Made by a program: the position numbers and the translations under genes. 64,000 nt of DNA, from NCBI GenBank assembly GCA_017614395.1, contig JAGABX010000111.1, forward strand, positions 1-64,000, read 5' to 3'. The DNA comes from Eubacterium sp. Lineage in GTDB: Bacteria > Bacillota > Clostridia > Lachnospirales > Lachnospiraceae. The notes beneath the pieces were generated by a model, which was not told the origin of the DNA, made no database searches, and worked only from the letters and a program-made list of their open reading frames with translations. Of this stretch, positions 14,263 through 62,634 are shown one piece after another (within the stretch, counting starts at the first letter, position 1; each line of letters starts with the position of its first letter).

Positions 14263-14371
14263 GAGAATCCATATTGCCATTGCCGCTCGGGGCACGTTCA
14301 CGACCTCCTCGTTCCTCGTCGGTCTCCACTTCGGGGGAATGCCCCTCGCAATAATGGCAATATGGATTCTC
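14263..14371. repeat. structured hairpin element, copy A
   Basis: Inverted arms GAGAATCCATATTGCCATT (14263-14281) and its exact complement (14353-14371) enclose a 65-nt core (14285-14349). The core begins GCTCGGGGCA and ends TGCCCCTCGC, which pair with each other. It also contains GACC/GGTC and a C(TTCG)G tetraloop-like hairpin. The core matches copy B at 63 of 65 positions. It sits between the convergent fprA and ABC permease genes and may terminate both, although neither side has a T-run. Confidence 0.9.
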
Positions 14372-14425
14372 TTAGTTTATTATCATGTGACACAGAATTT
14401 CTCGGATTTTAACTTATATATTGAA

Positions 14426-16837
14426 CTATTCCACATTCTTGAGCGCCTCATCCATCGGGATTTTGCGGATCTTGAGATATTGCAACAACGCAACAAGCCC
14501 GTAGGCGACGAGGCCCAGCAGGAACATTTTGAGATAGGTATCCCAGTTGATCCAGATTGTCAGCCAGCCGCTCATTTTCATCATAAATATGTGGTAAAGC
14601 CATATGATTACCGGTGTCACGATTAAAAAGCTGAACGCGATGGACAGTACGACAACCCATGTTGTTGCCATCAGATAGAGTCGTCCCACCTCGCTGTCGC
14701 GGTAGCCGAGTATCTTTACCATGGAGATCGATGTAGTGTTTCGTTCCAGGACGAGTTTGGTCAGCAGGTATATCAGTAAAGCGAACAGGATTATGGAAAA
14801 CACGTTCCACAACTCGAAAAGCTCGCCCATGGATACATCCAGCTGGCGTGACAGCTTGGTCATGTCGCTCTCGGTTATTATGGTCTGAACATATTTGTCA
14901 TCTATATCGTTTAGTTTCTGGTTACTGAAGTAGCCGTTGTAGTATTCATATTCCGGTGGTTCCGCGAGACGGTGAAGTAACATTTCCGTATCGTTTATTA
15001 CGTCGGTGATGCCCATCTCGGGTTTCAAAGTCTCATTGAAGGCATGTCTTGACATAAACACTGACAGACTGCTTGGATAGGATACTATGGAACTTACCTT
15101 TAGAGAGTAGGAGTCTTTTTCGTATTCCTCATGAAGCTCTATAGTGTCTCCTATATTGATTCCGTATTTTTCGTGTATCCCGTCAGATATTGCTATTCCG
15201 TCTGATGGAAGACTAAATTTCATGTATTCTGAATTATCTTCTATCCCGTAAACCGAGAATGCCTCGCGGGAGTCATCTTTTATGCCATCCGGGTAGTATT
15301 CCAGTGCGGAAAGGCAGAATTTTTCCGCATCCGGATAGTTCGTTTCTATCTGAGTTTTCAGAATATACTGGTACTTGGCGGGCATGGTTTTGATTACCTG
15401 CTCCTGATAATGTGAAAGCAACGGCCCCATCATCATACCGAATAACAGGAAAATGTTTGCCAGCATGATTCCTATGAACAATGTTGCGTAGTTACCAAAG
15501 TTTTGCAGAATGATGCGTAAACGGAATCTACCGAAAAAGCTGATTCGTGGCAGACGAGCCGCTTTAGAACGCTTTTTCTTGGAAAGGTCGTGTCTTAAAA
15601 AGCGCAACGGAGACAACCGTAATGCGCGTTTGATGGACAAATAATTGATGAGAAACATGATGATTACCGGAATGACTGTAGTCAGGATAAAAGCCTCGGC
15701 ATTCCACAGCACGGTAAATGTCGGCAGAGAATAACTGCCGTAATACATAGCAGCCGCGACATCTTTGAAAACCGTATATCCGAGTATATTTCCGATCAGA
15801 GCGGATATGAGAGTGACAATGACCGGAAGTGCTATGTAGTGGCGAGTGATTTCGCCGCGTGTGTAGCCGGAGGCACGGAGAGTGCCTATAACAGAGGCTT
15901 CCCGTACTATGGTGTGTCTGATGGTTATGGAGAATACGAATGCCATGACAGCAATCAGAACATACAGCAGAACCTTCATCAGGACTGTATCGCCGCCGAA
16001 GTCGGTTCCGGTGAAGTTGATCGCCTGATTGGCGTAACGGGGGAGGAAATCATCAAGTGTAACGTAACCTACAGCAGTTTTCATGACATCCTCGGCCATG
16101 TCGATTTCCTCGTCATCGTCGGCGGGGTCACGGTGATAGACCCACGCATATTCATAATTTACCTTCAATCCGTCAGCTTCCAGCTCTTTAAACCCTTTGT
16201 CGGTGACTACACCCACACCGAACATAATGGAATCAAACATCATGTCACTGTTGCTTGAAAACAGCGCGGAATAATCCGACAGTGCAACTAATCCGGAGAT
16301 TTTCATCTCGCGCCTGTTCACAAGCAGTGTGTCGCCTACTGAGTAGTTGTTGTTGTCGGCGTACATGCGATCGATAGCAACCTCGTCATCGGTCTGTGGG
16401 AATTCGCCTTCCATCAGGCATTCGATGTTGATATCAGTTCTCTTTTTAAAAAGTCTGAGTGTCGAGGTGCCGGAGAGTTGCCGGCCGTCACTGCCTGTTC
16501 CGGTGACAGCGGAGTTGTTCGAGGTTGAAGTATCATCTTTTGTGTGGAGAGCGGATACTACCGGCTCAACGAAAAACTGCTCGGTTACGATAACATCAGC
16601 ATCCTCGGCAATTCCGTCGATCGCAGCTGCTCCGGGTTCGTCCTTTGTTATGAAATGCCCCCACTCCACATTGTATTTTTCAAAGCTTTCATCATAAGCA
16701 GTGATCATGGATTTTGACGCAACTAAAAAACCGGAGATAAATCCGATCACCAAAATCATGAACAAAAAGATCACTATGTATTTTCCCAACTCGCCTTTTA
16801 ATTCGCGCGGGATTCGTTTCATCAAGGGCTTTTTCAT
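14426..16837 (-). CDS. ABC transporter permease, FtsX/MacB type
   Basis: An 803-residue membrane subunit with an N-terminal helix (KYIVIFLFMILVIGFISGFLVA), a large extracellular domain, three helices ending near the SPLRFLRHDLSKKKR loop, a second extracellular domain and a final set of helices. This is the FtsX/MacB duplicated layout used for mechanotransmission or for export of peptides and drugs, not import. Start: the ATG at 16837 (MKKPLMKRIPRELKGE) follows AGAGGA. The in-frame ATG at 16861 would add eight residues across that site. It lies 69 bp behind its ATPase gene in one operon. Substrate unknown. Family relatives in Clostridia often serve antimicrobial-peptide resistance. Confidence 0.85.
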   Translation of the reverse strand: MKKPLMKRIPRELKGELGKYIVIFLFMILVIGFISGFLVASKSMITAYDESFEKYNVEWGHFITKDEPGAAAIDGIAEDADVIVTEQFFVEPVVSALHTKDDTSTSNNSAVTGTGSDGRQLSGTSTLRLFKKRTDINIECLMEGEFPQTDDEVAIDRMYADNNNYSVGDTLLVNRREMKISGLVALSDYSALFSSNSDMMFDSIMFGVGVVTDKGFKELEADGLKVNYEYAWVYHRDPADDDEEIDMAEDVMKTAVGYVTLDDFLPRYANQAINFTGTDFGGDTVLMKVLLYVLIAVMAFVFSITIRHTIVREASVIGTLRASGYTRGEITRHYIALPVIVTLISALIGNILGYTVFKDVAAAMYYGSYSLPTFTVLWNAEAFILTTVIPVIIMFLINYLSIKRALRLSPLRFLRHDLSKKKRSKAARLPRISFFGRFRLRIILQNFGNYATLFIGIMLANIFLLFGMMMGPLLSHYQEQVIKTMPAKYQYILKTQIETNYPDAEKFCLSALEYYPDGIKDDSREAFSVYGIEDNSEYMKFSLPSDGIAISDGIHEKYGINIGDTIELHEEYEKDSYSLKVSSIVSYPSSLSVFMSRHAFNETLKPEMGITDVINDTEMLLHRLAEPPEYEYYNGYFSNQKLNDIDDKYVQTIITESDMTKLSRQLDVSMGELFELWNVFSIILFALLIYLLTKLVLERNTTSISMVKILGYRDSEVGRLYLMATTWVVVLSIAFSFLIVTPVIIWLYHIFMMKMSGWLTIWINWDTYLKMFLLGLVAYGLVALLQYLKIRKIPMDEALKNVE

Positions 16838-16906
16838 TTTAAAATCCTCTGTATTATACATGCTGTGTGTTGTTATTTATATGCGGATACCAATGGGATC
16901 GATCCT

Positions 16907-17605
16907 TTACCAGTCAAGCTCCATGGCGGCAATTTTGGTTTCATTTTTGTCATTATGCCGGATTTTGCCGTCCCGGAGGCGAATCACACGATCTGCCATT
17001 TGTTTGATCGCGTCATTGTGCGTTACCATTATGACGGTGTTGCCGTATTTTTGATTTACCTCCTCAATCAGCGCAAGGATTTCCTTGGATGTGTTGTAAT
17101 CCAATGCGCCTGTCGGTTCGTCGCATAGAAGAATATCCGGATTTTTCACTATCGCCCGCCCGATTGAGGTGCGCTGTTGCTGCCCTCCGGATAATTGATT
17201 GGGTAGTTTGTATCTGTGTTCATACAGCCCCAGTGTATTCAGCAAGTCATCAATATCAAGCGGTTTTTCACTGAGATACGCGCCGACCTCGATATTCTCC
17301 TTGACATTCAGGTTGGGTATCAGGTTGTACATCTGAAAAATATATCCCAAATGATTGCGCCGGTAGGCGGTCAGTGCTTTTTCATTCATGTCTATGGTTT
17401 TCTCACCATTAATTGAAACAAAACCGGAATCGGCATCGTCTATGCCGCCTATGATGTTGAGAAGTGTTGATTTGCCGGAACCGGACGGCCCTAACAGCAC
17501 GCAAATATCTCCCTTTTCAATAGAAAAAGTGATTCCTTTTAAAACCTCGACGCACGTTTCACCTGTCCCAAAGCTTTTATGCAGGTCATTAATTTCGATA
17601 AACAT
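16907..17605 (-). CDS. ABC transporter ATP-binding protein, MacB/LolD type
   Basis: A 232-residue ATPase with Walker A LGPSGSGKST, Q-loop IFQMYNLIPNLNVKEN, signature LSGGQQQRTSIGRA, Walker B ILLCDEPTGALD and H-loop MVTHND, all intact. The QMYNLIPNLNV and EPTGALD sequences are typical of the LolD/MacB group that pairs with FtsX-like permeases, and such a gene lies directly downstream. The ATG follows AAAGGAGATTCTT on the minus strand. Its promoter and a palindrome lie just upstream, pointing to control by an unlinked repressor. Confidence 0.92.
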   Translation of the reverse strand: MFIEINDLHKSFGTGETCVEVLKGITFSIEKGDICVLLGPSGSGKSTLLNIIGGIDDADSGFVSINGEKTIDMNEKALTAYRRNHLGYIFQMYNLIPNLNVKENIEVGAYLSEKPLDIDDLLNTLGLYEHRYKLPNQLSGGQQQRTSIGRAIVKNPDILLCDEPTGALDYNTSKEILALIEEVNQKYGNTVIMVTHNDAIKQMADRVIRLRDGKIRHNDKNETKIAAMELDW

Positions 17606-17635
17606 AAGAATCTCCTTTCAGATGACTCACAGTAA

Positions 17636-17649
17636 TTAGCAATGGCTAA
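17636..17649 (-). promoter_or_regulatory. palindromic operator-like site upstream of ABC exporter
   Basis: TTAGC-N4-GCTAA is a perfect inverted repeat located just after the expected transcription start of the minus-strand promoter at 17659-17687. The size suits a TetR- or MarR-type repressor. None is adjacent. Confidence 0.45.
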
Positions 17650-17658
17650 CCTTATATA

Positions 17659-17687
17659 ATATTACACCTGACATACGAAAATGTCAA
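17659..17687 (-). promoter_or_regulatory. promoter of ABC exporter operon
   Basis: On the minus strand, TTGACA (17687-17682), 17 bp, TAATAT (17664-17659). The spacing is optimal and the position is about 50 bp upstream of the ATPase ATG. Confidence 0.7.
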
Positions 17688-17777
17688 GAGAAATTTTTAC
17701 ATTTGTTCAAATGTTCATATTTACATCTAAACTTACCAAACCCAAGAGCCTGTGTCGATTACTGTTTCGACAAGTTA

Positions 17778-19307
17778 CTACTTTGACTTTCTCTCTAATT
17801 TAGCCATACGATGTTTGCGATGGTTGTGATAGTTATTGTGACCGTGAATGTGGTGGTGGAGATGAGTGATGTCCTCAATCCAGATTTTCGGATAAAACAG
17901 AATGAGCATCGGGAACAGCTCGAGACGTCCCGCCAGCATGTCGAAAATCATCACTATTTTGGAAAGAGGAGAGAAGAAATCAAAATTCCTCGTCGGCCCG
18001 ACGCCGCTGAGACCGGGACCTATGTTGTTCATAGTAGCGGCAACGCCGGTGAAATTGGTCTCGAAATCATGACCATCCAGTGAGACGAGGAACAAAGAGA
18101 CAATGAACAGCGCGATGTACGCTAAAAAGTAAACCGTTGTCGAGCGAACTGTCTCGTGGGTTAGCGGAGTGCCGTCAAATTTGATCTTGCGGATGGTTTT
18201 CGGGTGAATGTAGGAGATAATCTCCTTGATAACGCTCTTTACGAGCATGATGGCGCGGGAAACTTTCAGCCCGCCGCCTGTGGAACCGGCACAGGCACCA
18301 AGGAACATCAGCAGGATCAGGATGTATTTGGACAGAGAGGGCCATTGGTCGAAATCAGCGTTGGAAAATCCGGTAGTCGTCATGATGGAGCCGACCTGAA
18401 ATGAGGCTTTCTGAACCGCATCCCAGAAACCTGAGCACATATTGATAATATTTATCGTAATTATGGTTATTGCGGATATGATTATGATGAAATAGGCGCG
18501 TACCTCCTCCATCTGCCATGCTTTTTTGAATTTACGGTAAATAATATAGTAAAAAGCGTTGAAGTTTACACCGAACAGAATCATGAACACGATAATGATG
18601 TTCTGTTGCAGGATTGTGTAGTCCGCCAGACCGCTGTTGCGTACCGCGAAACCACCGGTTCCGGCGGTTCCAAACGACATTGTGAACGCGTCAAAAACTG
18701 GCATCCCTGTACACAAAAGAATCAGGATCATGGAGCCGGTCAGCCCCATGTATATGAAATAAAGAATACGGGCGGTTTCCTTCATGTGGGGAGCGAGCTT
18801 GCCTACATCAGGCCCCGGAGATTCGGCGCGCATCAGGTTGATAGTAGAGCCACCGGTCATCGGCAGGATCGCCATCAGGAATACGAGAACACCCATGCCT
18901 CCGATCCAGTGCGTAAATGAGCGCCAGAACAGGGATGCATGGGAGAGCGTGCTCAGATCACTGAGAATAGATGCACCTGTGGTGGTGAATCCGGAAACGA
19001 CTTCAAATATGGCGTTGATAAACGATGGTATCTCATCACTCAGGAAAAAGGGCAGAGCACCGAAAATACTCAATCCGATCCACGAGAGAGCGGTTGAGAC
19101 ACAGCCCTCCTTGAGATAAAACACATTTGATTTCGGCTTGCGGCGAGTCAGCATCAGACCGGTGATCAGACAAAGAGAGGCGGAGATGAGGAAATAGTAC
19201 CATTTGCCTTCGCCATATATAAAGTCGACAACGACCGGCATCAGCATCAGCACACCCTCGATGCCAAGCACGTACCCGACCACATATCTGATTATAGAAT
19301 AGTTCAT
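17778..19307 (-). CDS. trkH: Trk/Ktr potassium uptake channel subunit
   Basis: A 509-residue membrane protein of the TrkH/KtrB superfamily. The four selectivity-filter repeats are visible as TTTGASIL, GTAGTGGFA, MTTTGFSNAD and NNIGPGLSGVG, and the GGMGVLVFLMAILP block is characteristic of TrkH. It conducts K+ (with H+ or Na+) inward under control of the TrkA ring. The C-terminus ends in a His/Asn-rich cytoplasmic tail (HHHIHGHNNYHNHRKH), which is unusual and could bind metal. The ATG follows AGAAGGTGTG, 13 bp behind trkA in one operon. Confidence 0.93.
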   Translation of the reverse strand: MNYSIIRYVVGYVLGIEGVLMLMPVVVDFIYGEGKWYYFLISASLCLITGLMLTRRKPKSNVFYLKEGCVSTALSWIGLSIFGALPFFLSDEIPSFINAIFEVVSGFTTTGASILSDLSTLSHASLFWRSFTHWIGGMGVLVFLMAILPMTGGSTINLMRAESPGPDVGKLAPHMKETARILYFIYMGLTGSMILILLCTGMPVFDAFTMSFGTAGTGGFAVRNSGLADYTILQQNIIIVFMILFGVNFNAFYYIIYRKFKKAWQMEEVRAYFIIIISAITIITINIINMCSGFWDAVQKASFQVGSIMTTTGFSNADFDQWPSLSKYILILLMFLGACAGSTGGGLKVSRAIMLVKSVIKEIISYIHPKTIRKIKFDGTPLTHETVRSTTVYFLAYIALFIVSLFLVSLDGHDFETNFTGVAATMNNIGPGLSGVGPTRNFDFFSPLSKIVMIFDMLAGRLELFPMLILFYPKIWIEDITHLHHHIHGHNNYHNHRKHRMAKLERKSK

Positions 19308-19320
19308 TTATTCACACCTT

Positions 19321-20727
19321 CTATTTCTCAAGTATCTGATTTATATTGTCGTATCCGAGATTGGTCGTGACTATCATCACGGAATCCCCGACATGGATTC
19401 TGTCGCGACCGGAAGGGATTTTAATACTTCCTTTGCGATTGATTGTCGCGATCAAAACATTTTTCCTGATCTTGAGATCCTTCAGGTAAACCTCTGTTAT
19501 CGGTGAATCCTCAGTAATCGTGAATTCAACGGCCTCAACACGGTCGTTAAACATGTGATAGAGGGTTTCGACGTTGCTGCCCTTGGAGTTCATCAGCCCG
19601 CGAACATATGAGATTATCGCTTCTGCTATTATGTAGCGTGGGTAGATGACCGATCCGAGATCCATTCCGCGGATAACATCGCGGTAGTTGACGCGATTGA
19701 TTTTGGTTACAACCTTAACATCGTCGTTGACATTCATGGCGTGAAGAGCAAGCAGTATATTCTCCTCATCCACTCCGGTCAATGGTATGAAACTTTCAAC
19801 ATGTCTGATATTCTCCTCGTGCAGGAGTTCCTCAGAGGTTCCGTCGCCGTGTATAATAATTGCTTTGGGTAGAAGAATGCTGAGTTCCTCACAGCGCGCG
19901 CGGTTCTGCTCAATGATCTTGACTTCAATGCCCATATCGATCAACTGGTTTGCAAGGTAATATGCGGAGGTTCCGCCACCTATGATCATGCAGTCGGAGA
20001 CCTGCCTGGAGTCAAATCCAATGTATTCGAAAAAGTCACGCACATGCTCTTTTGATGAGACAAACGAAACCTGATCGCCGACCTCGATGTGGTCAAAACC
20101 CTTGGGGATAATGACCTCGTCGTCGCGTTCGATAACAGTGATCAGAAGGTCATGGGGGAGTTCTGAGCCAATCTCGGCTATGGTTTTGCCTACTAAAGGG
20201 TTGTCGTCGTAGACCTCAAATTTGACCATTTCGGCGCGCCCGTGCGCAAACGGATTGACCTCCAGAGCGTTAGGCTGATAGAGAAGTCTCGCGGTTTCCA
20301 TAGCGGTAGACAGTTCGGGATTAATTATCATGGTCAATCCCAGTTTCTCACGGAAATACTGTGCTTCCGAGGAGTAGTCAGGAGTGTGGACACGTGCGAA
20401 GGTCGCGCATTTGCTGACCTTGCTGGCAACAGAGCAGCAGAGCAGGTTCAGTTCGTCGTCCTCGGCTACGGCAATAAAAACATCTGCCTGCTGGATGCCG
20501 GCATCCATTAGGATTCCATAACGGGCACCGTTACCGATAATTCCCATAACGTCATAGTAGTTGGCTATTTCATTAACACGCGCCCGATCCTTATCGATGA
20601 TCGTGATGTCATGTCCCTCCTTGGAGAGACGCTCAACCAGTGTTGCGCCGACAGTTCCGCAACCGACTATGATGATGTTCAGGCCGTGTCGCTGTTCCGG
20701 GGTATGAAACAAGTTAAATAATCCCAT
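19321..20727 (-). CDS. trkA: Trk potassium uptake regulatory subunit
   Basis: A 468-residue cytoplasmic gating protein with two RCK units in tandem. The first Rossmann domain has GCGTVGATLVERL and a binding Asp in DITIIDKD. The second has GGGTSAYYLANQL. Each is followed by a TrkA-C domain. It binds NAD(H) or ATP and assembles as a ring on TrkH, encoded immediately downstream. A divergent intergenic region of about 250 bp separates it from glgP and carries one promoter for each direction. Confidence 0.94.
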   Translation of the reverse strand: MGLFNLFHTPEQRHGLNIIIVGCGTVGATLVERLSKEGHDITIIDKDRARVNEIANYYDVMGIIGNGARYGILMDAGIQQADVFIAVAEDDELNLLCCSVASKVSKCATFARVHTPDYSSEAQYFREKLGLTMIINPELSTAMETARLLYQPNALEVNPFAHGRAEMVKFEVYDDNPLVGKTIAEIGSELPHDLLITVIERDDEVIIPKGFDHIEVGDQVSFVSSKEHVRDFFEYIGFDSRQVSDCMIIGGGTSAYYLANQLIDMGIEVKIIEQNRARCEELSILLPKAIIIHGDGTSEELLHEENIRHVESFIPLTGVDEENILLALHAMNVNDDVKVVTKINRVNYRDVIRGMDLGSVIYPRYIIAEAIISYVRGLMNSKGSNVETLYHMFNDRVEAVEFTITEDSPITEVYLKDLKIRKNVLIATINRKGSIKIPSGRDRIHVGDSVMIVTTNLGYDNINQILEK

Positions 20728-20776
20728 CGCTCTACTCCTTGTTCGTATATGCGCAATGATTTTTGCGTTAAGTATA

Positions 20777-20804
20777 ACTATACTCTTTTTTCAGAATTTT
20801 GCAA
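20777..20804 (-). promoter_or_regulatory. promoter of trkA-trkH
   Basis: On the minus strand, TTGCAA (20804-20799), 16 bp, TATAGT (20782-20777), about 50 bp before the trkA ATG. It lies back-to-back with the glgP promoter. Confidence 0.5.
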
Positions 20805-20838
20805 GATATTTTTGCGCGTGAGTTTTTTCTTTTTATCG

Positions 20839-20867
20839 TTGCAGAGAATGAAAAAGTGTGGTATAAT
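20839..20867 (+). promoter_or_regulatory. glgP promoter (TTGC / TGG-TATAAT type)
   Basis: TTGCAG (20839-20844), 17 bp, perfect TATAAT (20862-20867) with TGG just upstream. A leader of about 100 nt follows, with no recognised riboswitch. Confidence 0.78.
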
Positions 20868-20975
20868 CGGTTTGTTGTGTTGGACTATTCGTTGACCGGA
20901 CAATATCGGTCAGACAATTCTGCAAGGTAAGAGTAGCCAACCGGATTTGCATAGTATTAGAGGAGGATTTTTACA

Positions 20976-23234: not shown

Positions 23235-23262
23235 CGGGTGCTGAAAAAAATCAAATTAGGTA

Positions 23263-23291
23263 TTGACCAATGGTCATTTTTGTGATAGACT
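23263..23291 (+). promoter_or_regulatory. promoter and TetR-type operator of MMPL operon
   Basis: TTGACC (23263-23268), 17 bp, TAGACT (23286-23291). The palindrome TGACC-AAT-GGTCA (23264-23276) overlaps the -35 and spacer, so a bound repressor would block RNA polymerase. The TetR gene closing this operon is the natural candidate. Confidence 0.65.
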
Positions 23292-23308
23292 ACCAATATC
23301 ATGAAAAA

Positions 23309-23321: not shown

Positions 23322-23360
23322 TTTTGGTCCATTTTAGTCAAAAGACAGGAGGAAAAGCAA

Positions 23361-34488: not shown

Positions 34489-34489
34489 C

Positions 34490-40518: not shown

Positions 40519-40653
40519 GGGATATGTGCATATAATCCGCTCGGGACTCCGTTCTCACCTTGCGGAAACGTAGCGGTGCATGGCTCGAAAACACCTCGCC
40601 TACGCACCGACGTTTCCTAAAGTTCCCTCGCGGAAATTATATGCACATATCCC
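40519..40653. repeat. structured hairpin element, copy D (long form)
   Basis: Arms GGGATATGTGCATATAAT (40519-40536) and its exact complement (40636-40653) enclose a 93-nt core (40539-40631). The core begins GCTCGGGACT and ends AGTTCCCTCGC. The ends pair as in the other copies, here with an A-T pair after GGG and one bulged T. The interior forms its own long stem, GGAAACGT-AG-CGGTGC against GCACCG-ACGTTTCC. It lies in the 335-bp gap between the transketolase and aroA genes. Confidence 0.88.
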
Positions 40654-40828: not shown

Positions 40829-42514
40829 ATGGTTAAAGAGTATAATAATCAGTATAAGGTTAATACATTTAATAAACCGGTGAATATTCAGGTGCGGGTT
40901 CCCGGATCCAAGAGTATTACAAACAGGGCGTTGCTGATTGCGGCTCTGAGTGACGGGGAGTGCGTGCTCAGGGGTTGCGGAATGAGCGATGACTCGCGGG
41001 TGTTTATAGAGGCTTTAGTCAGTCTTGGATTTGATGTTCAGGTGGATGGCTGTGATGTCGTGATACGTGGCGAGGGAGGAAGTATTCCACGTAAGCATGG
41101 TGACGTATATGTCGGCAGCGCCGGCACCGCAGCGCGCTTTTTGACGGCTATGATGGGGCTCTCTGACGGCGTATATGAGGTGACGTCCTCCGACCAGATG
41201 AAAACACGCCCTATGAGACCGTTGTTGGAGGCACTCGAACTCCTCGGTGCCGCTTTTACGTTTCATGAGCAGCCCTATGCATTTCCGTTTACGGTCACCG
41301 GTGCAGCTTGCATGGCAGACCGTTCCAAAACGGATTCGATGAAAATCGTCCATGATACGGATTCGGAGAGAATAACCCATGAGTCGTGGTTGACGGATTC
41401 TGGTAAGACTGACTCGGAATCACATGGCCTGACCATACCTCTTAACATTGACGCCAGCTCACAGTTTCTCAGTGCATTGCTTCTCTGCGCGCCGATGATT
41501 CCGTCCGGATTTTCCATCGAACTGACAGGAAAGCGCGAGGCACTGTCTTATGTAAAAATCACGGAACAGATGATGAGCACATTTATTATTTCAGATCAGC
41601 ATAACCGAATAACAGGAATTGATAAACAGAAAGATGATTTGTTTATAAATCCCGGAGAAAACCCTTCATCCGGGCAGCCTGCCGATGGATACAACGAATG
41701 CGAGGGCCATTGCAAGCGCATGAGCGACGAGCGAAGCGAGGAAGCGAATAGAGCGTGGCCCGAGCAGAGTTGTATCATCGGCAGGCGGAATAACACCATT
41801 ATTGTTCCGTCTGATGTACGATATCATGCCCGCAAGTACGACATTGAACCGGATGTGTCGGCCGCATGCTATTTCTATGCCATGGCGGCCATTAACGGAG
41901 GCAGCGCCCATGTCAGGGGAGTCAATCGAAACAACACACAGGGGGATATGCAGTTTTTAGATGTTCTGGAACAGATGGGATGCTCAGTTGGTTATGGCTC
42001 CGGTGATGGACCTGCAAACTCGACATTTGCTGTTTCTGAGTCTGATGGATCCGGACAGGAGATAAACCACCGTAATCCCGTGGGCGATATCATCGTTTCC
42101 CGTGACCCATCCACACAGCTTCATGGCATAGATGTCGATATGAGTGATTTCTCCGATCAGACAATGACGCTGTCAGTAATTGCACCGTTTGCTGATTCTC
42201 CGACAATCATTCGAGGTGTCGGACATATACGCAACCAGGAATCGGACCGTATACACGGGATAGTTACGGAACTGACGCGACTCGGAATTCGCTGCGAGGA
42301 GTATCCGGACGGGTTGAAAATATATCCGATCGATAATAATGAAAAAGCCTCAGACGAAACTGTCATCGACACCTACAATGACCACCGTATGGCGATGTCA
42401 TTTGCCGTAATCGGCACCCGGATTCCGGGCGTTGTCATCGATAATCCGGATTGTTCGCGAAAAACATTTGATGCTTTTTTTGAAATACTGTCCGGTATTT
42501 TGGAAAAAGGATGA
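40829..42514 (+). CDS. aroA: 3-phosphoshikimate 1-carboxyvinyltransferase (EPSP synthase) with insertions
   Basis: Joins phosphoenolpyruvate to shikimate-3-phosphate, the sixth step of the shikimate pathway. Core motifs are intact: VPGSKSITNRALLIAAL, GSAGTAARFLTAMMGL, DQMKTRPMRPLLEAL, DASSQFLSALLLCAP, IEPDVSAACYFYAMAAI, RNQESDRIHGIVTEL and DTYNDHRMAMSFAVIG. At 561 residues it is about 130 longer than usual. Three polar inserts lie in surface loops: near residues 155-195 (repeated TDS), near 255-330, and near 385-415. The middle one contains hairpin element C read in frame. The active-site residues flank the inserts, so the enzyme is probably functional. The start shares a duplicated 60-bp unit with two leader ORFs. 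Confidence 0.92.
   Translation: MVKEYNNQYKVNTFNKPVNIQVRVPGSKSITNRALLIAALSDGECVLRGCGMSDDSRVFIEALVSLGFDVQVDGCDVVIRGEGGSIPRKHGDVYVGSAGTAARFLTAMMGLSDGVYEVTSSDQMKTRPMRPLLEALELLGAAFTFHEQPYAFPFTVTGAACMADRSKTDSMKIVHDTDSERITHESWLTDSGKTDSESHGLTIPLNIDASSQFLSALLLCAPMIPSGFSIELTGKREALSYVKITEQMMSTFIISDQHNRITGIDKQKDDLFINPGENPSSGQPADGYNECEGHCKRMSDERSEEANRAWPEQSCIIGRRNNTIIVPSDVRYHARKYDIEPDVSAACYFYAMAAINGGSAHVRGVNRNNTQGDMQFLDVLEQMGCSVGYGSGDGPANSTFAVSESDGSGQEINHRNPVGDIIVSRDPSTQLHGIDVDMSDFSDQTMTLSVIAPFADSPTIIRGVGHIRNQESDRIHGIVTELTRLGIRCEEYPDGLKIYPIDNNEKASDETVIDTYNDHRMAMSFAVIGTRIPGVVIDNPDCSRKTFDAFFEILSGILEKG
41677..41786. repeat. structured hairpin element, copy C, inside aroA (reverse orientation)
   Basis: Arms GCCTGCCGATGGATACAAC (41677-41695) and GTTGTATCATCGGCAGGC (41769-41786) are complementary except for one bulged G. 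On the minus strand the enclosed core begins GCTCGGGCCA and ends TGGCCCTCGC, 66 nt long, so the pair after GGG is C-G instead of the G-C of copies A and B. In aroA it is read in frame as roughly residues 283-320 (GYNECEGHCKRMSDERSEEA and onward) without a stop. Confidence 0.88.
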
Positions 42515-53847: not shown

Positions 53848-53864
53848 GAATATGGAGGTGCATT

Positions 53865-55013: not shown

Positions 55014-55071
55014 ATCGTAATATTTTGATATTTCGTAATATTGTTACATAAAAATGTGGGGGTGAATATTT

Positions 55072-56310
55072 ATGCGCGCTATTTTAGAGCGTCCGGCGAT
55101 TTGTGTTCCGATCAACGGACTTGTGAGGTTTGCCGTGACACAGCAATCCCGACTTGCGTCCGAATCTGATGCGGACATGGCTGAATGGCGTATTGATTGT
55201 TTTGCAGGGCAGGAATCCGAAATACCTGCGGTTGCCAGGGACATAAAAAGCGATTTGCGTGAGAAAAAGCTGATTGCCACTCTTCGAACCACTTATGAGG
55301 GCGGTGAGGATAACGGAGACAGGTTTGATTATTTCAGCGTGATCAGGCAGCTCATAGAACAGGATGCCGCTGACTATGTTGATATCGAGCTGGAACGTGA
55401 TCCCGGACAGCTGAAGGAATGCGTTAAACTGGCACGTGACAGGGATATAAAGGTTATCGGCTCGTATCATGATTTTGAGAGCATGCCGTCAGAGGAGTTC
55501 ATCATTGATAAACTAAAGAGTGCGATGGATATCGGGTGTGACGTTGGAAAAATATCATGCATGGCGAACAGTGTTCAGGACGCGGAAACAATGCTTTGCG
55601 CCACCGGAAACTTTTTCCGCGAAAATCCTGACTTTCCCATAATGACAATGGCTATGGGCAAGCATGGTTACAAGAGCCGTTTGTACGGCGGACTGTACGG
55701 CTCGAGGGTTTCGTTTGCCACTCTGACCAAGGCATCGGCTCCGGGACAGCGCAGTCTGGAAGAGATGAAGGAGGTTTTTGACAAGCTGTATTCGAGACCG
55801 GGACACATATTCCTGATCGGTTTCATGGGTACGGGGAAATCGACTGTCGCCAGGGAAATCAGCGAAATGTATGATCTCCCGGAGGTTGATACGGATTACC
55901 TGATTGAGGAAAAGTGCGGACGCAGCGTTCAGGAGATTTTTTCGGAAGACGGCGAGCCGGTTTTTCGCATGATTGAGAGCGACCTTCTCGATGAATTGGG
56001 GAAATGGGAACGGGCGGTTGTATCATGTGGCGGCGGAGTTCCGTTAAAACCGCTGAATGTGCGGAAGCTTCAGGCGATGGGGACTGTGGTCTGGCTGACA
56101 GCAGAAGCGGAGACCATCTACAAGCGCGTACACAACAGCGAAACGAGACCTCTGCTGAACGGCAACATGAATGTGGATTATATCAGATCTCTCATGGATG
56201 AGCGCCGTCCTGCGTATGAATCGGCTGCAGATGCGTCTGTGGCGACTGATGGAAGGGATTTGGCGGATATCGCGAGGGAGGTATGGGAAAAGCAAGTTTT
56301 TGTTTTTTAA
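55072..56310 (+). CDS. bifunctional 3-dehydroquinate dehydratase (type I) / shikimate kinase
   Basis: A 412-residue fusion of two shikimate-pathway enzymes. Residues of about 1-240 are a type I dehydroquinase: AEWRID, the general base H133 in GSYHDF, the Schiff-base lysine K160 in VGKISCMA, and GLYGSRVSFATL. Residues of about 246-412 are shikimate kinase with P-loop GFMGTGKST (K256), VDTDYLIEEKCGRS, SCGGGVPL and a lid region TRPLLNGN. Both active sites look complete, so the protein should perform dehydration and phosphorylation, but not the AroE reduction between them. AroE is separate at 62664. The ATG follows a G-rich site. Confidence 0.92.
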   Translation: MRAILERPAICVPINGLVRFAVTQQSRLASESDADMAEWRIDCFAGQESEIPAVARDIKSDLREKKLIATLRTTYEGGEDNGDRFDYFSVIRQLIEQDAADYVDIELERDPGQLKECVKLARDRDIKVIGSYHDFESMPSEEFIIDKLKSAMDIGCDVGKISCMANSVQDAETMLCATGNFFRENPDFPIMTMAMGKHGYKSRLYGGLYGSRVSFATLTKASAPGQRSLEEMKEVFDKLYSRPGHIFLIGFMGTGKSTVAREISEMYDLPEVDTDYLIEEKCGRSVQEIFSEDGEPVFRMIESDLLDELGKWERAVVSCGGGVPLKPLNVRKLQAMGTVVWLTAEAETIYKRVHNSETRPLLNGNMNVDYIRSLMDERRPAYESAADASVATDGRDLADIAREVWEKQVFVF

Positions 56311-56311
56311 C

Positions 56312-56340
56312 TTGCATTTGAGTCGATTTTTTGGTAGAAT
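56312..56340 (+). promoter_or_regulatory. efp promoter (TTGC / TGG-TAGAAT type)
   Basis: TTGCAT (56312-56317), 17 bp, TAGAAT (56335-56340) with TGG just before. It begins only two bases after the AroD-AroK stop. Confidence 0.72.
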
Positions 56341-56393
56341 GACCTTAGTATTTGTTTTTTGAAAAGATTTTTGAAAAGAATGGAGGAACAGTA

Positions 56394-56951
56394 ATGATTT
56401 CAGCAGGAGAGTTCAGAAACGGACTGACAGTGGAGATTGACGGTGTTGTTTATCAGGTGGTTGAATTTCAGCACGTGAAACCGGGAAAGGGCGCGGCATT
56501 CGTGCGGACGAAGCTTCGCAATGTTGTTGACGGAGGTGTGGTAGAGAAAACATTCCGCCCGACTGAGAAATTCCCACAGGCGCATATCGACAAAAAGGAG
56601 ATGCAGTATCTCTATAACGATGGCGAGATGTACAATTTCATGGACAATGAAACCTATGAGCAGATTGCACTGACCACAGAGGCTGTCGGTGACACCATGA
56701 AATTTGTTAAGGAAAATGATAACGTAAAAATGCTTTCATACAAGGGAAATATTTTTGCTATTGAGCCGCCTATGTTTGCTGAATTGGAGGTTACTGAGAC
56801 CGAGCCGGGCGTCAAGGGTGATACAGCTACAAATGTTACCAAGCCGGCTACAGTTGAGACAGGCGCTCAGGTTGCTGTACCGTTATTTGTAAACCAGGGT
56901 GACCGTATTCAGATTGATACACGTACGGGAGAGTATCTTAAGAGAATTTGA
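56394..56951 (+). CDS. efp: elongation factor P
   Basis: Relieves ribosome stalling at polyproline stretches by entering the E site. The 185-residue protein starts [17 protein letters not shown] and has the KOW-like domain I with the tip lysine K32 in KPGKGAAF, the site that is modified in firmicutes and enteric bacteria. OB domains II and III follow, ending in [17 protein letters not shown]. The ATG at 56394 follows GGAGGAAC. An in-frame ATG at 56352 would add a non-conserved 14-residue leader and is rejected. Confidence 0.96.
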
Positions 56952-56993
56952 TCCCGGGTTTTCCGACTTAATGAGTGGAGAGTGGTGTTTGCT

Positions 56994-58136
56994 ATGAAGA
57001 AAAAAGCCGGAAGGATAATTTCGCTGTTTTTATGCATTGCATTGGCAATGACGATGATCGGTTGCGGGGATGGCAGCGATGATTCCGACAAGACCATTAA
57101 AATCGGTGTATCCATTTGGAATTCAAGCGATCAGCTGGGTTCTCAATGCAAGAGGATTTTGGATCAGGCGGCTGCCGCGTTGGGTGATGTGGAGTTAGAG
57201 TACATCGACCAGGGACATGTCTCTGATAAGGTTGCAGCATCGGTTGAAAAACTGATAGAGGATGGATGCAAGGGTATTATTGTCTGCAATTCCGCCGACA
57301 AGGAGATGTCGTCCATAATCCGTACCTGTGATGATGACGGTGTTTATGTTGCACAGTTTTTCCGTATTGTCAGTGAACAGGAATCGCCTGATATATTTGA
57401 TTTGGCGAAGGATTCACAGTATTTTGTTGGCGCGGTTCATGAGGATGAGAAGGATAACGGGAAACATCTCGGTAATATCCTTTTGGAAAGAGGCTGCCGA
57501 AAAATCGGAATGATTGGCTGGGAACAGGGTGACGCTACCTGGCTGGAACGCTGGGAGGGATATCAGAGTGTTGTCAATGAGTGGAACAGCACGCATATCA
57601 ATGACACTGCTGAACTTACTGAGCCTCAATATGCCGGCACGACATCGGAGGGCGGAGAGAAGGCGGCTGATTTTCTGATCAATGCGAATCCGGATCTTGA
57701 TGCCATAGTTCCGGCAGGAGGCGGTGGAGAACCTCTCGACGGCGCGCTGAAGGCTGTTGAGAAGGCAGGCAAGACCGGAGATATCAAGGTTGTATCTACG
57801 GATTTTCGCGATGATCTCGAGGAACGTCTGCAGAATGGTTCCATTACTGCCGAGTCCGGAGGACATTATTGTGATCCGCTTTTTGCAATGCTGATGGTTT
57901 ACAATGCTGTTCGGGGGCATTACAGTGATTTTGCCGGACAGTTTAATGAGATTCTTTATCCGTATTTGTTTGTTGATTCACCGGAGGCTTATTCAAATTA
58001 CAAAAAGTATTTTGTTGACCAGTTGCCGTATTCCGATGCTGAGATTCGGGAAATGGCCGGAATGCGTTTGGAGGAGCTTGCAGAGAAAGCAGCATCCCTT
58101 TCGATTGATGATGCTAGAAACAGATCCGGTAAATAA
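56994..58136 (+). CDS. sugar-type periplasmic-binding lipoprotein (orphan)
   Basis: A 380-residue exported lipoprotein. The signal KKKAGRIISLFLCIALAMTM ends in the lipobox MIGC, with Cys near residue 24. The mature part is a LacI/RbsB-like type I binding protein (IKIGVSIWNSSDQLGSQCKR, IEDGCKGIIVCNSADKE, GCRKIGMIGWEQGDATWLER, DLDAIVPAGGGGEPLDGALK, DIKVVSTDFRDDL). It should bind a sugar or small signalling molecule. No permease or ATPase gene is nearby, so it may serve a distant transporter or a chemoreceptor. The ATG follows GGAGAG. A terminator follows the stop. Confidence 0.87.
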   Translation: MKKKAGRIISLFLCIALAMTMIGCGDGSDDSDKTIKIGVSIWNSSDQLGSQCKRILDQAAAALGDVELEYIDQGHVSDKVAASVEKLIEDGCKGIIVCNSADKEMSSIIRTCDDDGVYVAQFFRIVSEQESPDIFDLAKDSQYFVGAVHEDEKDNGKHLGNILLERGCRKIGMIGWEQGDATWLERWEGYQSVVNEWNSTHINDTAELTEPQYAGTTSEGGEKAADFLINANPDLDAIVPAGGGGEPLDGALKAVEKAGKTGDIKVVSTDFRDDLEERLQNGSITAESGGHYCDPLFAMLMVYNAVRGHYSDFAGQFNEILYPYLFVDSPEAYSNYKKYFVDQLPYSDAEIREMAGMRLEELAEKAASLSIDDARNRSGK

Positions 58137-58151
58137 TATGTATTCTTTTGG

Positions 58152-58185
58152 GCCGATGGTGTCGGATGGCGTCATCGGCTTTTTT
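58152..58185 (+). terminator. intrinsic terminator after binding lipoprotein
   Basis: Stem GCCGATG/CATCGGC (58152-58158 with 58173-58179), a 14-nt loop and six T residues. Confidence 0.82.
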
Positions 58186-58222
58186 AACACAACGGAGTTT
58201 AATATCATAGGGGGCGTGAGAT

Positions 58223-58537
58223 ATGGTTAAATTCAAGAACGGTAAAAAAAGCGGGAAGTGGTCATTTAAAACAGGATCGCGGAAAAGGAGATTTAAAGTC
58301 CGTTCCCTGCGGCCCGGCAAATGGACACTTCTGTTCAGGCTCGGCAGCAATGCAAAAAAGAAAAATAAAAGGAAGATGGACAAGCTTCGTAAACTGAAAA
58401 AAATGAACAAGATGGCGAAGCAGCGAAAGATGTTTCTTCCCACATTGCCGAAACTGCATATAAAGAGAAAAGCCCAAAAGATAAATAAGGCGCGAAAAAT
58501 CGCCAGACTGCCGATGTTCAAGATAAAGAAAAAATAA
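58223..58537 (+). CDS. very basic small protein of unknown function
   Basis: A 104-residue protein with about 31 Lys and 12 Arg but a single acidic residue, roughly 40 percent basic. It has no membrane segment or signal peptide. The start MVKFKNGKKSGKWSFKTGSR follows GGGGG, and KKKNKRKMDKLRKLKKMNKM illustrates the composition. Such a protein could bind nucleic acid, polyphosphate or cell-envelope polymers. It could also be a ribosome-associated factor, but I do not recognise it. It stands alone between a terminator and the exonuclease gene. The opposite strand is also open over this stretch but looks like a shadow of the Lys codons. Confidence 0.62.
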   Translation: MVKFKNGKKSGKWSFKTGSRKRRFKVRSLRPGKWTLLFRLGSNAKKKNKRKMDKLRKLKKMNKMAKQRKMFLPTLPKLHIKRKAQKINKARKIARLPMFKIKKK

Positions 58538-58627
58538 CTGTCTGACAGGGTTAAGAAAACATCCTGCGTAAAAATGTACGGATATTTGAAATCAGCAATA
58601 CTGATAACTGCATCATAGGGGGAAAAA

Positions 58628-59383
58628 ATGCGATTTGTTTCATGGAACGTCAACGGCCTTCGTTCATGCGTAAGCAAAAATTTCAATGAGGCTTTCAACG
58701 AATTGGATGCAGATGTGTTCTGTCTGCAGGAAACCAAGCTTCAGGCAGGTCAGATTGATATGGAATTGCCGGGTTACAAACAGTTCTGGAATTACGCAGA
58801 GAAAAAGGGATACTCCGGCACGGCGGTTTTTACAAAAACAGAACCGTTAAGCGTTACATACGGGATCGGTGTTGAGGAACACGACCATGAGGGACGTGTT
58901 ATAACATGCGAGTTCGATAGCTTTTTCTTTGTGTGCGTATATACACCGAATTCGCAGGATGGACTGAAAAGACTCGATTACCGGATGGATTGGGAGAATT
59001 CATTCCGAGAATATCTGTGCGATTTACATGAGAAAAAGAGCGTGATCGTCACCGGTGACATGAATGTGGCTCATCAGGAAATCGATCTGAAAAATCCTTC
59101 ATCAAATCATCACAACGCCGGATTTACCGATGAGGAGAGAGGCAAGTTTTCAGAGCTTTTAGATGCGGGATTCGTTGACAGTTTCCGTTTTCTGTATCCT
59201 GACGTTACGGGTGCGTACAGCTGGTGGTCATATCGTTTTCAGGCGAGGAGCAGGAACGCCGGATGGCGCATTGATTATTTTCTGGTTTCGGATGATGCAA
59301 AGGATCGCATTCGGGAGGCAAAAATTCACTCAGAGATTCTGGGTTCCGATCACTGCCCGATCGAGTTGGAAATTGATTTTTGA
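58628..59383 (+). CDS. exoA: exodeoxyribonuclease III / AP endonuclease
   Basis: Cuts DNA 5' to abasic sites and removes 3' blocks in base-excision repair. The 251-residue protein has the full endonuclease/exonuclease/phosphatase set: SWNVNGLRSC, CLQETKLQ with the metal-binding Glu, GYSGTAVFTK, GDMNVAHQEIDLKNP, and the closing GSDHCPIELEI with the catalytic Asp-His. GWRIDYFLVSDD is also typical. The ATG follows AGGGGGAAAA. It is transcribed just ahead of the EAL-domain gene, 21 nt apart. Confidence 0.95.
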   Translation: MRFVSWNVNGLRSCVSKNFNEAFNELDADVFCLQETKLQAGQIDMELPGYKQFWNYAEKKGYSGTAVFTKTEPLSVTYGIGVEEHDHEGRVITCEFDSFFFVCVYTPNSQDGLKRLDYRMDWENSFREYLCDLHEKKSVIVTGDMNVAHQEIDLKNPSSNHHNAGFTDEERGKFSELLDAGFVDSFRFLYPDVTGAYSWWSYRFQARSRNAGWRIDYFLVSDDAKDRIREAKIHSEILGSDHCPIELEIDF

Positions 59384-59404
59384 TCGGGATTGGGAGGAGA
59401 GTTT

Positions 59405-61633
59405 ATGGGGAAACACTGTTGTTCTCGATTTCAATTTATGAGAATACTTAGGAATATAACCTGTGCCTTGGCAGTTCTGTGCGCATGCGGTGCAGTTCTT
59501 TTGTTTCCTGTTTTGTCAGTATCAGCCGCGTCCGGTGATAAACTCATAGTCGGGATTCCTGCGGACAGATGTCCGACTTTTTATACGGATGGTGAAACCG
59601 GTAAAACAGTAGGGATTGGTGTGGATTTATTCCGAATGGCTGCGGAGAATGCAGGGTTTGAGCCGGAATTCCGGTTTATCGGGGAGAAAAACATAAAGGA
59701 AGCCCTGGATAATGATGTATATGATGTACTTTTACCATTCGGCAGCGCAATTACGAGTAAATCCGGAAAACCCACTGTTGTTTCGGATAATCTATTCCAG
59801 ACCCCGTTTACTCTTGTTTCACTGAATAAACGCGGACTGCCTTCACTGAGTGAACTAAAGGCAGGGATGCTGCACTCTCAGGAGGGCGTCGCGGATACGG
59901 TTCGCAGACTTTTTCCGGGAATCAGAATTGAGTTTTATGAAACAGTTCAGGATTGCGTGGACGCCCTGCGAAAAGGAGATGTTCAGGCGCTCCTGAACAA
60001 TTCATTTGTGTGGAGTTATATCCTTCAGAAACCGTCTTATTCTGATCTCATGGTTCTGCAGTCGGCCATATTTACCATGGATTTCAGAGCCGGCACGCAG
60101 GACACTCATTCAGGGCGTGAGATCATAGAACGGCTGAACGGCGGTATTGCGAAAATGACTGATCAGGAACGGCAGGCCGTTGTTTGGGATTACACTACAC
60201 GGCGACTCTATCAGTATGGTTTTTTCGATTATCTGTATGAATACTGGCTGTTCTTTGTTATAGGCGGGATTATAATTATCGCCATAGTATCTGTCCTGAT
60301 CATCAGGTGGCGAATGATTCGATCCAGGCAGGAAAAAAAGATTGTTCAGCTGAGGGATCGTGATACGTTGACCGATGCCTACAACCTGAATGGATTCCGT
60401 GACAGAGCCGGGGAGGTGTTACGTAATAACCCGGATCTGCCCTATGTGTTGTTTTACAATAATATCAAGAATTTTAAATATATCAACGACAGTTATGGAA
60501 TGGAGGTCGGAGACGAACTGCTATGTTTTCTGGCTGACAGGATTATGGATAACCTGACTGATATAGATGTTATTTGCCGTATCGAAGCCGATCATTTTGC
60601 GGTGCTCCGTCATTTGGATGCAAATGAGAATCTGGGTTTTTATGAAAAAGCAATACTCAGACCTGTTCGCGATTTTCTAGTCAATCAGGACAAGGAAACC
60701 CGTGTACAGTTGTGCGCGGGGGCGTATGCGCTTACAATGTCCGATCATCAGGCGGCCAATATTGATCATTTGCTCGATTTTGCCAGGTTGGCTGAGAAGA
60801 GATTAAGGGATAATCATAACGAGGGAATTGAGTTTTATAATCCGGATCAATGGAACACAGGGCGTCTGAGGGCGGATGTTGCCGGGCATTTGCCTGTTGC
60901 TCTCGAAACCGGTGAGATTCAGGTCTGGTATCAGCCACAGGTTGACTATGAATCCGGCGAGGTTATCGGAGCGGAGGCGTTGTGCCGATGGAAACACGCC
61001 AAACGGGGGTGGATCTCACCGGCTGAGTTTATTCCGGCATTGGAGGATTCGGGGCTGATATATGATCTTGATTGTTATGTATGGAATACTGTATGCAAGG
61101 ATCTCAGGCGCTGGAACAAGGAGGGGATACACCGATCCGTTTCCGTGAACATTTCCAGAGCCGATCTGTTGAAGAGCCAGAGTATTCCGGAGTATTTTTG
61201 TGAATTGCTCAGCACGTACCTGCTCACGCCTGATCAGATCCGTATAGAGATCACGGAAACCGCCTTTGTGGAGAATCCCGAGCTCCTGATCCTGACAACG
61301 GGCAAGTTCAGAGAATATGGATTCCATGTGGAAATGGACGATTTCGGAAGCGGTTATTCCTCCCTGAATATGCTTAAGGAGGTTCAGGTTGATCGGATCA
61401 AAATGGATCTTCATTTTTTGACGGAGACAGGGGATACAGAAAAAGGTCGTATCATAGTCAAGCATGTGATCCAGATGGCACGGGATTTGAAAATCGGCCT
61501 GATCACTGAGGGTGTGGAGACAGGAGAACAGGCAGCGTTTTTGGGAGACCTCGGGTGTACTGATATGCAGGGCTTTTATTTCCACAAACCAATGCCGACG
61601 GAGAAATTTGAAAAACTGAACAGTGCATCATGA
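59405..61633 (+). CDS. sensor with SBP3 domain, degenerate GGDEF and EAL phosphodiesterase
   Basis: A 742-residue membrane signalling protein. A signal segment (about residues 13-40) is followed by an extracellular solute-binding family 3 domain (KLIVGIPADRCPTFYTDGET). A transmembrane helix (WLFFVIGGIIIIAIVSVLII) follows, and then a GGDEF domain in which the signature is replaced by IEADHF. It is therefore not a working cyclase. The EAL domain looks complete: GAEALCRW, SVNISRADL, RIEITETAF, MDDFGSGYSSL, DRIKMDLHF and ITEGVETGEQ. It should degrade cyclic di-GMP in response to an amino-acid-like ligand. The ATG at 59405 follows GGGAGGAG. Confidence 0.9.
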   Translation: MGKHCCSRFQFMRILRNITCALAVLCACGAVLLFPVLSVSAASGDKLIVGIPADRCPTFYTDGETGKTVGIGVDLFRMAAENAGFEPEFRFIGEKNIKEALDNDVYDVLLPFGSAITSKSGKPTVVSDNLFQTPFTLVSLNKRGLPSLSELKAGMLHSQEGVADTVRRLFPGIRIEFYETVQDCVDALRKGDVQALLNNSFVWSYILQKPSYSDLMVLQSAIFTMDFRAGTQDTHSGREIIERLNGGIAKMTDQERQAVVWDYTTRRLYQYGFFDYLYEYWLFFVIGGIIIIAIVSVLIIRWRMIRSRQEKKIVQLRDRDTLTDAYNLNGFRDRAGEVLRNNPDLPYVLFYNNIKNFKYINDSYGMEVGDELLCFLADRIMDNLTDIDVICRIEADHFAVLRHLDANENLGFYEKAILRPVRDFLVNQDKETRVQLCAGAYALTMSDHQAANIDHLLDFARLAEKRLRDNHNEGIEFYNPDQWNTGRLRADVAGHLPVALETGEIQVWYQPQVDYESGEVIGAEALCRWKHAKRGWISPAEFIPALEDSGLIYDLDCYVWNTVCKDLRRWNKEGIHRSVSVNISRADLLKSQSIPEYFCELLSTYLLTPDQIRIEITETAFVENPELLILTTGKFREYGFHVEMDDFGSGYSSLNMLKEVQVDRIKMDLHFLTETGDTEKGRIIVKHVIQMARDLKIGLITEGVETGEQAAFLGDLGCTDMQGFYFHKPMPTEKFEKLNSAS

Positions 61634-61653
61634 CCTGACAAATAATAAAAATG

Positions 61654-61682
61654 TTGCCAAACCGGGACGGTTATGGTATAAT
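61654..61682 (+). promoter_or_regulatory. promoter of asp23-nusB-aroE (TTGC / TGG-TATAAT type)
   Basis: TTGCCA (61654-61659), 17 bp, TATAAT (61677-61682) preceded by TGG. It lies about 55 bp before the Asp23 start. Confidence 0.78.
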
Positions 61683-61735
61683 GTGAGCAATTGAATCAGA
61701 CTTTTTTGTATTCATAACAGGAGGATGAGATTATC

Positions 61736-62092
61736 ATGGAAAACACACAGGAAGAGGGAATCGGCGAAATCCAGATTGCAAATGAGGTCGTTGCGGCTAT
61801 TGCCAGTATCTCGGCAAGCGAGATAGAGGGTGTTGAAACGCTGACCGGTAATCTGAAAAACGAACTGGTAGGACGATTCGGCTCAAAGAAAAATGCCAAA
61901 GGAGTTCGCGTAACGGTTGACGACAACGAGGCCGAGGTGGATATAGAGATTACCATGAAATACGGTTACAGTATCCCGGAAACCAGCGCGCGTGTCCAGG
62001 ATCGTATAGCACAGTCAATCAATGAGATGACAGGACTGACTGTCAGCCGTGTAAATGTAAGTATCGCGGGCGTTGCTCTGCCAAAGGATTGA
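61736..62092 (+). CDS. Asp23/Gls24-family envelope stress protein
   Basis: A 118-residue member of DUF322/Asp23. It shows the N-terminal [27 protein letters not shown], cut here as [12 protein letters not shown] and EIEGVETL, then [19 protein letters not shown] and the C-terminal [13 protein letters not shown]. The YqhY branch found next to nusB in firmicutes is the closest functional context. In Bacillus that gene is linked to acetyl-CoA carboxylase control. A strong CAGGAGG site precedes the ATG. nusB starts 5 nt after the stop. Confidence 0.9.
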
Positions 62093-62097
62093 AACTG

Positions 62098-62526
62098 ATG
62101 GATGATGAGAAACTGAATCGACATGAATTGCGAACCTGCGTGTTCCTCATGTTGTATCAGAGGGAGTTTTATCCCGATGATCGTTATGAGGAACAGCAGG
62201 ATATTTTTCTTGAAGAATTAAAAAATGAGGATCCGTTATCACCCGAGGATCAGGCGTATGTAAAGGATACACTGGCGCGGATTGAGCCGCTTCTGCCGGA
62301 AATCGATGCCCGGATCGAGGCGGCGTCAGAGGGGTGGAAACTCAAACGGATTGCACGGGCTGAATTGGCCATACTGCGGTTGGGTGTTTATGAGGCGCTG
62401 TATGATGACGAGGTGCCGGTGAAGGTCGCAATAAACGAGGCAATTGAATTGGCGAAGGATTACGGCCGTGAGAAGGCCCCTGCCTTCGTTAACGGCGTTC
62501 TGGATTCTATATGCAACAAGCATTAG
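62098..62526 (+). CDS. nusB: transcription antitermination factor NusB
   Basis: Partner of NusE/S10 in ribosomal RNA antitermination, binding boxA RNA. The 142-residue helical protein has the N-terminal Arg helix ([18 protein letters not shown]) and the conserved C-terminal block [20 protein letters not shown] plus FVNGVLDSI. The ATG at 62098 is preferred over an in-frame TTG at 62089 that overlaps the asp23 stop. The final G of its stop codon is the first base of hairpin element B. Confidence 0.94.
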
Positions 62527-62634
62527 GGAACAGAACAGGCTTATTCGGCTCGGGGCACGTTCACGCCCTCCTCGTTCCTCGTCGGGCTCCACTTCGGGGG
62601 AATGCCCCTCGCCAAACAAGCCTGTTCTGTTCCC
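62526..62634. repeat. structured hairpin element, copy B
   Basis: Arms GGGAACAGAACAGGCTT (62526-62542) and its exact complement (62618-62634) extend inward by seven more positions with two mismatches. They enclose a 65-nt core (62548-62612). The core is identical to copy A except at two positions that pair with each other (GACC/GGTC in A, GCCC/GGGC in B). It lies between nusB and aroE, starting on the last base of the nusB stop. Confidence 0.9.

Follow-up and report, generated by a model that had tools for sequence, protein, structure and literature searches.

Four hairpins with a common core

The window analysed here is the whole 64,000-nt stretch of contig JAGABX010000111.1 from the Eubacterium sp. 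assembly GCA_017614395.1 (2.6 Mb; G000, where G numbers denote genomes and L numbers loci). It carries four hairpin elements, each consisting of two complementary arms around a structured core, with the coordinates, cores and arms that the original prediction had read from the letters of the window (Table 1). Copies 1, 2 and 4 point the same way and copy 3 the opposite way. We refer to the strand reading CGAGG...CCGAG, the minus strand in copy 1, as the GA strand; the RNA-type motifs of the core sit on it, complementary to the strand originally described. According to Pfam, copy 1 follows an ODP/flavodoxin-type gene whose stop codon is at 14245, copy 2 is placed between a transketolase-type gene and aroA, and copy 3 inside aroA, while the arm of copy 4 begins on the final base of the nusB stop codon; a shikimate dehydrogenase-type gene also has its label from Pfam.

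Table 1 Hairpin copies in the window and the gene that holds copy 3
Feature	Position	Strand	Core (length)	Arms	Description
Copy 1	14263..14371	-	14285-14349 (65 nt)	14263-14281/14353-14371	Short-core; arms 19 bp perfect
Copy 2	40519..40653	-	40539-40631 (93 nt)	40519-40536/40636-40653	Long-core; arms 18 bp perfect
aroA	40829..42514	+			EPSP synthase, 561 aa (Pfam); holds copy 3 in frame, frame open throughout
Copy 3	41677..41786	+	41700-41765 (66 nt)	41677-41695/41769-41786	Short-core; one bulged G in the arms
Copy 4	62526..62634	-	62548-62612 (65 nt)	62526-62542/62618-62634	Short-core; arms 17 bp perfect

Perfect arms of at least 15 bp spaced 60-140 nt apart occur three times in the window, always as copies of this family (1, 2 and 4), and not once in each of 20 block shuffles. 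The pattern GCTCGGGN{40,70}CCCTCGC likewise gave three matches in the window and none in 100 shuffles. For wider searches, we built two covariance models, R1 for the short cores (71 positions; 9 short cores used) and R2 for the long cores (99 positions). Run over the window up to E 10, they revealed no additional family site beyond the four copies. The two core types are possibly related, because each model weakly matches a copy of the other type: R2 detects the short copy 4 at E 0.031, and R1 detects copy 2 at E 0.65.

Four copies in 64 kb had been taken to imply many in the genome, and the whole assembly indeed contains 15 R1 and 14 R2 matches with no coordinates in common, 29 altogether, among them the truncated L048 and one match at a contig end (C37:5-87). 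Arms were aligned for 24 of these 29 copies, and 22 reached an arm score of at least 12, the remaining two being L048 and the weak L012. Among the short copies, two pairs are identical over their 65-nt cores although their arms are unrelated; for the two pairs of own copies above the core cut-off, arm identities ranged from 0.36 to 0.52, compared with a mean of 0.41 and a maximum of 0.68 in the background.

Folded cores and paired stem changes

The outer GC pair and the TC/TC internal loop, predicted to be fixed at the core ends, proved not to be invariant. On the GA strand the outer core helix shows tandem G.A mismatches (TC/TC on the opposite strand) in 9/9 short cores and in only 42 of 66 distinct long cores; in 13 of these 66 (by hand count) Watson-Crick pairs replace the mismatch loop, and the tandem G.A loop is not general in other genera. 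Inside the outer helix, the long cores contain an inner hairpin of two helices (2 and 3), with optional additional hairpins in helix 3, and a small hairpin with a GNRA loop. Among long-core matches, to which this count is confined (copy 2 being the only one in the window), the GNRA loop was found in 63 of 64 distinct cores of our long-core alignment (A6) and in all 39 elements taken from other genera (102/103), many of these copies being related and two further A6 cores giving no hairpin in the tested span. The mini-hairpin was chosen by its two closing pairs and its position, not by its loop sequence. All eight GNRA members occur across both sets and the closing pairs covary. An apparent G.T pair and a bulged A join helices 2 and 3 in 57 of the 66 long cores. 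By our reading, three copies in G023 (L273-L275) carry an additional domain, ~77 nt long, on the inner end of their outer helix.

The stems of the core covary, as originally proposed. Pairing held in 97.6% of the 1385 cells of the distinct long cores (66 in number), and 249 cells had changed on both sides, compared with 72 in shuffles (0/500 reached the observed value) and at most 33 in slid structures. Mispairs in the 1385 cells included 6 G.T and 8 A.C. In symmetric alignment scores, the arms of 100 elements comprised 3078 Watson-Crick pairs, 76 G.T, 76 A.C and 254 other mispairs, a mix of mispairs near that expected from random ones; one element (L326) has arms of ~53 bp with no mismatch. 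Neither in arms nor in core were wobble types enriched on either strand.

An RNA drifting by compensatory mutation should give a wobble excess on one strand. The equal numbers of G.T and A.C in the arms, and the few of either in the core, thus point to DNA-level copying between the arms rather than to RNA wobble drift. Measured against what a structured RNA should display, the long-core copies have covarying stems and RNA-type loops and lack the wobble excess on the RNA strand. In PMC8794818, template switching is presented as a source of perfectly paired new hairpins and of instantaneous compensatory changes, and within a hairpin it rewrites one side from the other. Our elements resemble the hairpins treated there in both respects; those examples come from microRNA and rRNA genes, whereas the present ones form a dispersed repeat family.

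Spread, movement and genomic position

R2 matches occur in 18 of 39 genomes of the genus, among them G001 (60 copies), G025 (57), G018 (50) and G023 (29). Across the family sampled, which is likely Lachnospiraceae judging by the names of AroA homologues, 85 of 397 genomes have matches, and these come from 77 of 334 genera (own genome included throughout; family-wide scoring stopped at the 10 best candidates of each genome, and E-values are rough). From 19 other genera, 19 loci (21 copies) display the helix 2/3 core together with paired arms (scores 12 to 42), and the outer helix of these copies varies widely. R1, run over 299 family genomes, matched in the window's genome only, with one further weak match within the genus (L034). 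This suggested a species-specific family, an idea dropped once R2 matches in relatives showed that the limit lay in the R1 model. Exact-pattern scans of database contigs gave 0 matches, in a collection that may exclude the window's own record and those closest to it. Rfam 15 produced no match on any element, either in the window at gathering score or in 48 loci at E<=1, in agreement with the original prediction, which knew of no named family combining unique arms with a conserved core, and we set aside a known RNA family on this ground. The matches returned for the 48 loci were a tRNA, two S10 leaders and, next to a tandem copy in L288, a weak mir-277 (E 0.27); no core was hit. In open-licence literature (titles and abstract openings), no description of the hairpin family was found.

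The claim that arms differ completely between loci held among the own copies compared and failed in relatives: copies share arms as well as cores in G001, G023, G225 and part of G305, a finding that the original prediction had itself named as refuting. Of the 8 copies compared in G023, 7 do not differ in the core, and their arm identities are 0.76-1.00. In G225, direct repeats of ~9-16 bases, which we take as target-site duplications, flank the copies (total score 79.5 versus 44.3 over 8 copies; 0/5000 shuffles), and G305 gave a weak signal of the same kind (p 0.018).

G001 and G025 allowed orthologous sites to be compared. Among 12 pairs filled in both, five (L156, L158, L162, L165 and L190) are near identical, with core identities of 0.95-1.00, and their cores are better kept than their flanks. 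At L161/L180 the arms agree at 54/56 positions and the flanks at 702/744, and the core at only 70/99; here the arms were kept while the core stems changed. In L182/L235 and L192/L241 the difference is partly an 18-19 nt hairpin extension, and in L195/L244 and L175/L233 both cores and arms differ. L174/L187 and L188/L238 were left out of the core-swap claim, as each locus has two copies and mispairing is possible. Elsewhere the filled sites differ between the sister genomes, the counterpart being empty, scarred or differently filled. We compared 20 pairs as putative empty sites, of which 5 turned out to be filled in both. The other 15 were classed by eye: seven are scars that retain a single arm or half of the core (L168, L169, L170, L173, L186, L193 and L194), five are occupied by another hairpin or another copy (L164, L166, L167, L175 and L185), and three are clean (L176, L183 and L191). 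These sites were discarded as proof of which arm is native. One junction, presumably ecfA-ecfT (labels read from the sequences, as is phoH below), bears different copies in G000, G001 and G006.

Copies tend to lie at gene ends, the core edge being at most 50 nt from a stop codon in 39 of 56 copies from three genomes. In the same genomes, where the neighbouring genes are in tandem (33 cases), they are opposed by the GA strand in 28 and matched by it in 5, an antisense bias that we do not regard as a family rule because orthologous pairs are counted in it and copies from other genera gave 4 antisense and 5 sense (by eye). The element is not confined to intergenic DNA, as copy 3 inside aroA illustrates. 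A closely similar inserted peptide is present in the AroA of another organism (P0002, 65% identity by BLASTP), and the AroA sequences P0003-P0008 are without it. Some open reading frame spans 13 of the 56 copies according to a crude finder whose calls were not checked singly; aroA is the one clear in-frame case. An intrinsic terminator scan of copies 1, 2 and 4, limited to loops of 3-8 and thus not directly covering long-loop hairpins, located no site on the element. In two different genera (L290 and L305), a copy lies ~110-190 nt upstream of the S10 ribosomal leader RF03136.

Explanations and nearest known systems

The hairpins belong to a dispersed family of repeats that share a conserved folded core. 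With moderate confidence, we propose that this family spreads in the manner of miniature inverted-repeat transposable elements (MITEs) and that template switching within the hairpin keeps its arms complementary. The element would be moved in trans by some enzyme, and its GA strand may be the one recognised, folded as single-stranded DNA or as RNA; the fixed loops would be accounted for in this way. After insertion, DNA synthesis would switch template within the hairpin and rewrite both arms at once, so that the arms could drift apart between loci yet stay paired. Cores may sometimes be exchanged within resident arms, which would give the identical cores in unrelated arms of the window's genome.

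Several points weigh against this interpretation. No mobiliser was found when an autonomous partner was sought via PF01797 and PF00078. Among the 18 element-bearing genus genomes, 16, including the window's own and the ten richest, lack the Y1 transposase (PF01797), which occurs once each in G002 and G013 with their 3 element copies each; 14 of the 18 lack the reverse transcriptase (PF00078), with one each in G000, G001 and G015 and two in G018, so that a SINE-like retroelement is still conceivable in the window's own genome (some genomes are incomplete: G004 61%, G008 69%, G009 68%). The direct repeats in G225 were noticed by eye before the test, and the right end of one of the eight copies (L317) was not found; outside G225, tests for target-site duplications gave no signal for own short copies (p 0.296), own long copies (0.211), G001 (0.309), G025 (0.411), G023 (0.927), G157 (0.628) and 18 others (0.210). 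The core-swap claim rests on one clean pair, L161/L180. Arm alignments favour complementarity by construction, and the A6 alignment was made with the model's own structure. Moreover, a purine at the third loop place suits RNA better than DNA, which leaves room for an RNA function.

Such a function is the core of the alternative that the GA strand is transcribed as a structured RNA whose copies are kept by selection, with mobility secondary. The GNRA loops with their covarying closing pairs, the apparent G.T pair and bulged A between helices 2 and 3, and the five orthologues that keep the core better than the flanks all speak for it. We nevertheless consider it rather doubtful, given the balance of wobble types, the lack of an Rfam match and the differently filled sites in sister genomes; the antisense position of the GA strand in most tandem cases would also demand a promoter of its own there. 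Alternatively, insertion might copy the host flank in inverted form, one arm being native host DNA and the other templated at insertion. One arm of L038 spans the stop, the last codon and two preceding bases of the upstream gene, which we take to be phoH, and, by eye, the core was not seen at the same junction in 27 congener loci, nor at the nusB junction of 8 congeners; the identical cores in unrelated arms fit as well. Against it, arms arrive with the copies themselves in G001, G023 and G225, and the apparent native-arm cases L183/L236 and L186/L237 could equally be deletions of an older copy; this explanation appears unlikely to us. Similar gene ends around L033 were rejected as a sign of copying since they may be chance.

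If the core inserted into palindromes that were already in place, for instance into the loops of terminators, this would agree with the further inverted sequence seen by eye to flank some units (L329 and L330). Such insertion is improbable, as the window is without other perfect palindromes of at least 15 bp at such spacing (shorter loops lay outside the test), the three scanned copies showed no terminator-like site on the element, and by eye the 8 congener nusB sites have no palindrome and the 27 congener sites a single, different hairpin (L078). The many copies and the palindromes at gene ends also recall repetitive extragenic palindromic (REP) sequences moved by a REP-associated Y1 transposase (RAYT). 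We rejected this mobiliser, which the absence of Y1 from 16 of 18 genomes, the ten richest among them, makes scarcely credible. REP sequences and bacterial interspersed mosaic elements (BIMEs) share the location of palindromes near stop codons with the elements described here, which are longer.

We read MITEs as the nearest known kind. As short dispersed repeats with inverted ends, the elements agree with their definition, and with bacterial examples such as bcr1, ERIC and BOX they have in common short, dispersed, palindromic units, target-site duplications (here in G225) and no transposase inside the unit. They are set apart by a large conserved folded core with a GNRA hairpin, by stems that change yet stay paired and by the lack of a terminal repeat common to the genomes compared. 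Integron attC sites similarly keep structure more than sequence and have variable stems, unpaired bases and a position after stop codons; the neighbours in the window, in contrast, are housekeeping-type genes and not cassettes. Rickettsia palindromic elements are palindromes of ~150 bp able to sit in frame in genes, according to PMC10969869, a location shared with copy 3 in aroA. The present elements differ in host group and in their concentration near stop codons.

More tentatively, and as a possibility that we hold less firmly than the MITE-like spread itself, the elements may represent a new type of mobile nucleic acid, present across the bacterial family and defined by the folded strand (GNRA hairpin and fixed internal loops) instead of by its sequence, with both arms self-rewritten by template switching and cores exchangeable inside resident arms. 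If so, any stem could be altered entirely without loss of pairing. Covariation is usually taken as proof of functional RNA, and this sizeable natural collection, which covaries heavily yet shows an excess of wobble pairs on neither strand, offers a direct test of how much of it DNA template switching alone produces. As a repeat class, the elements occur in about a fifth of the sampled family genomes, are absent from Rfam 15 as searched and can sit in frame in a biosynthetic gene.

Further hairpins and arrangements were noted alongside the family. The helix 2/3 motif appears in four IMG/VR contigs (L307-L310), of which only L308 reaches R2 (E 0.0063), and L288:1141-1599 holds three copies head-to-tail with a period of 180 nt. 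In L226 (G025), compared with L164 (G001), a TTCG tetraloop apparently replaces the core, with the arms partly kept. A second hairpin family with variable stems (AGCTTTT-TTCCTCGCTCGC ... CTCGGAA-AAAACT) occupies L227 (G025) and L245 (G001), where the sister genome has the conserved-core element. A third palindrome family, CTGATA...TATCAG around GAATGC..GCATTC, was found in G008 and G004 (L070-L073, L059 and L124), and its arms also vary by copy.

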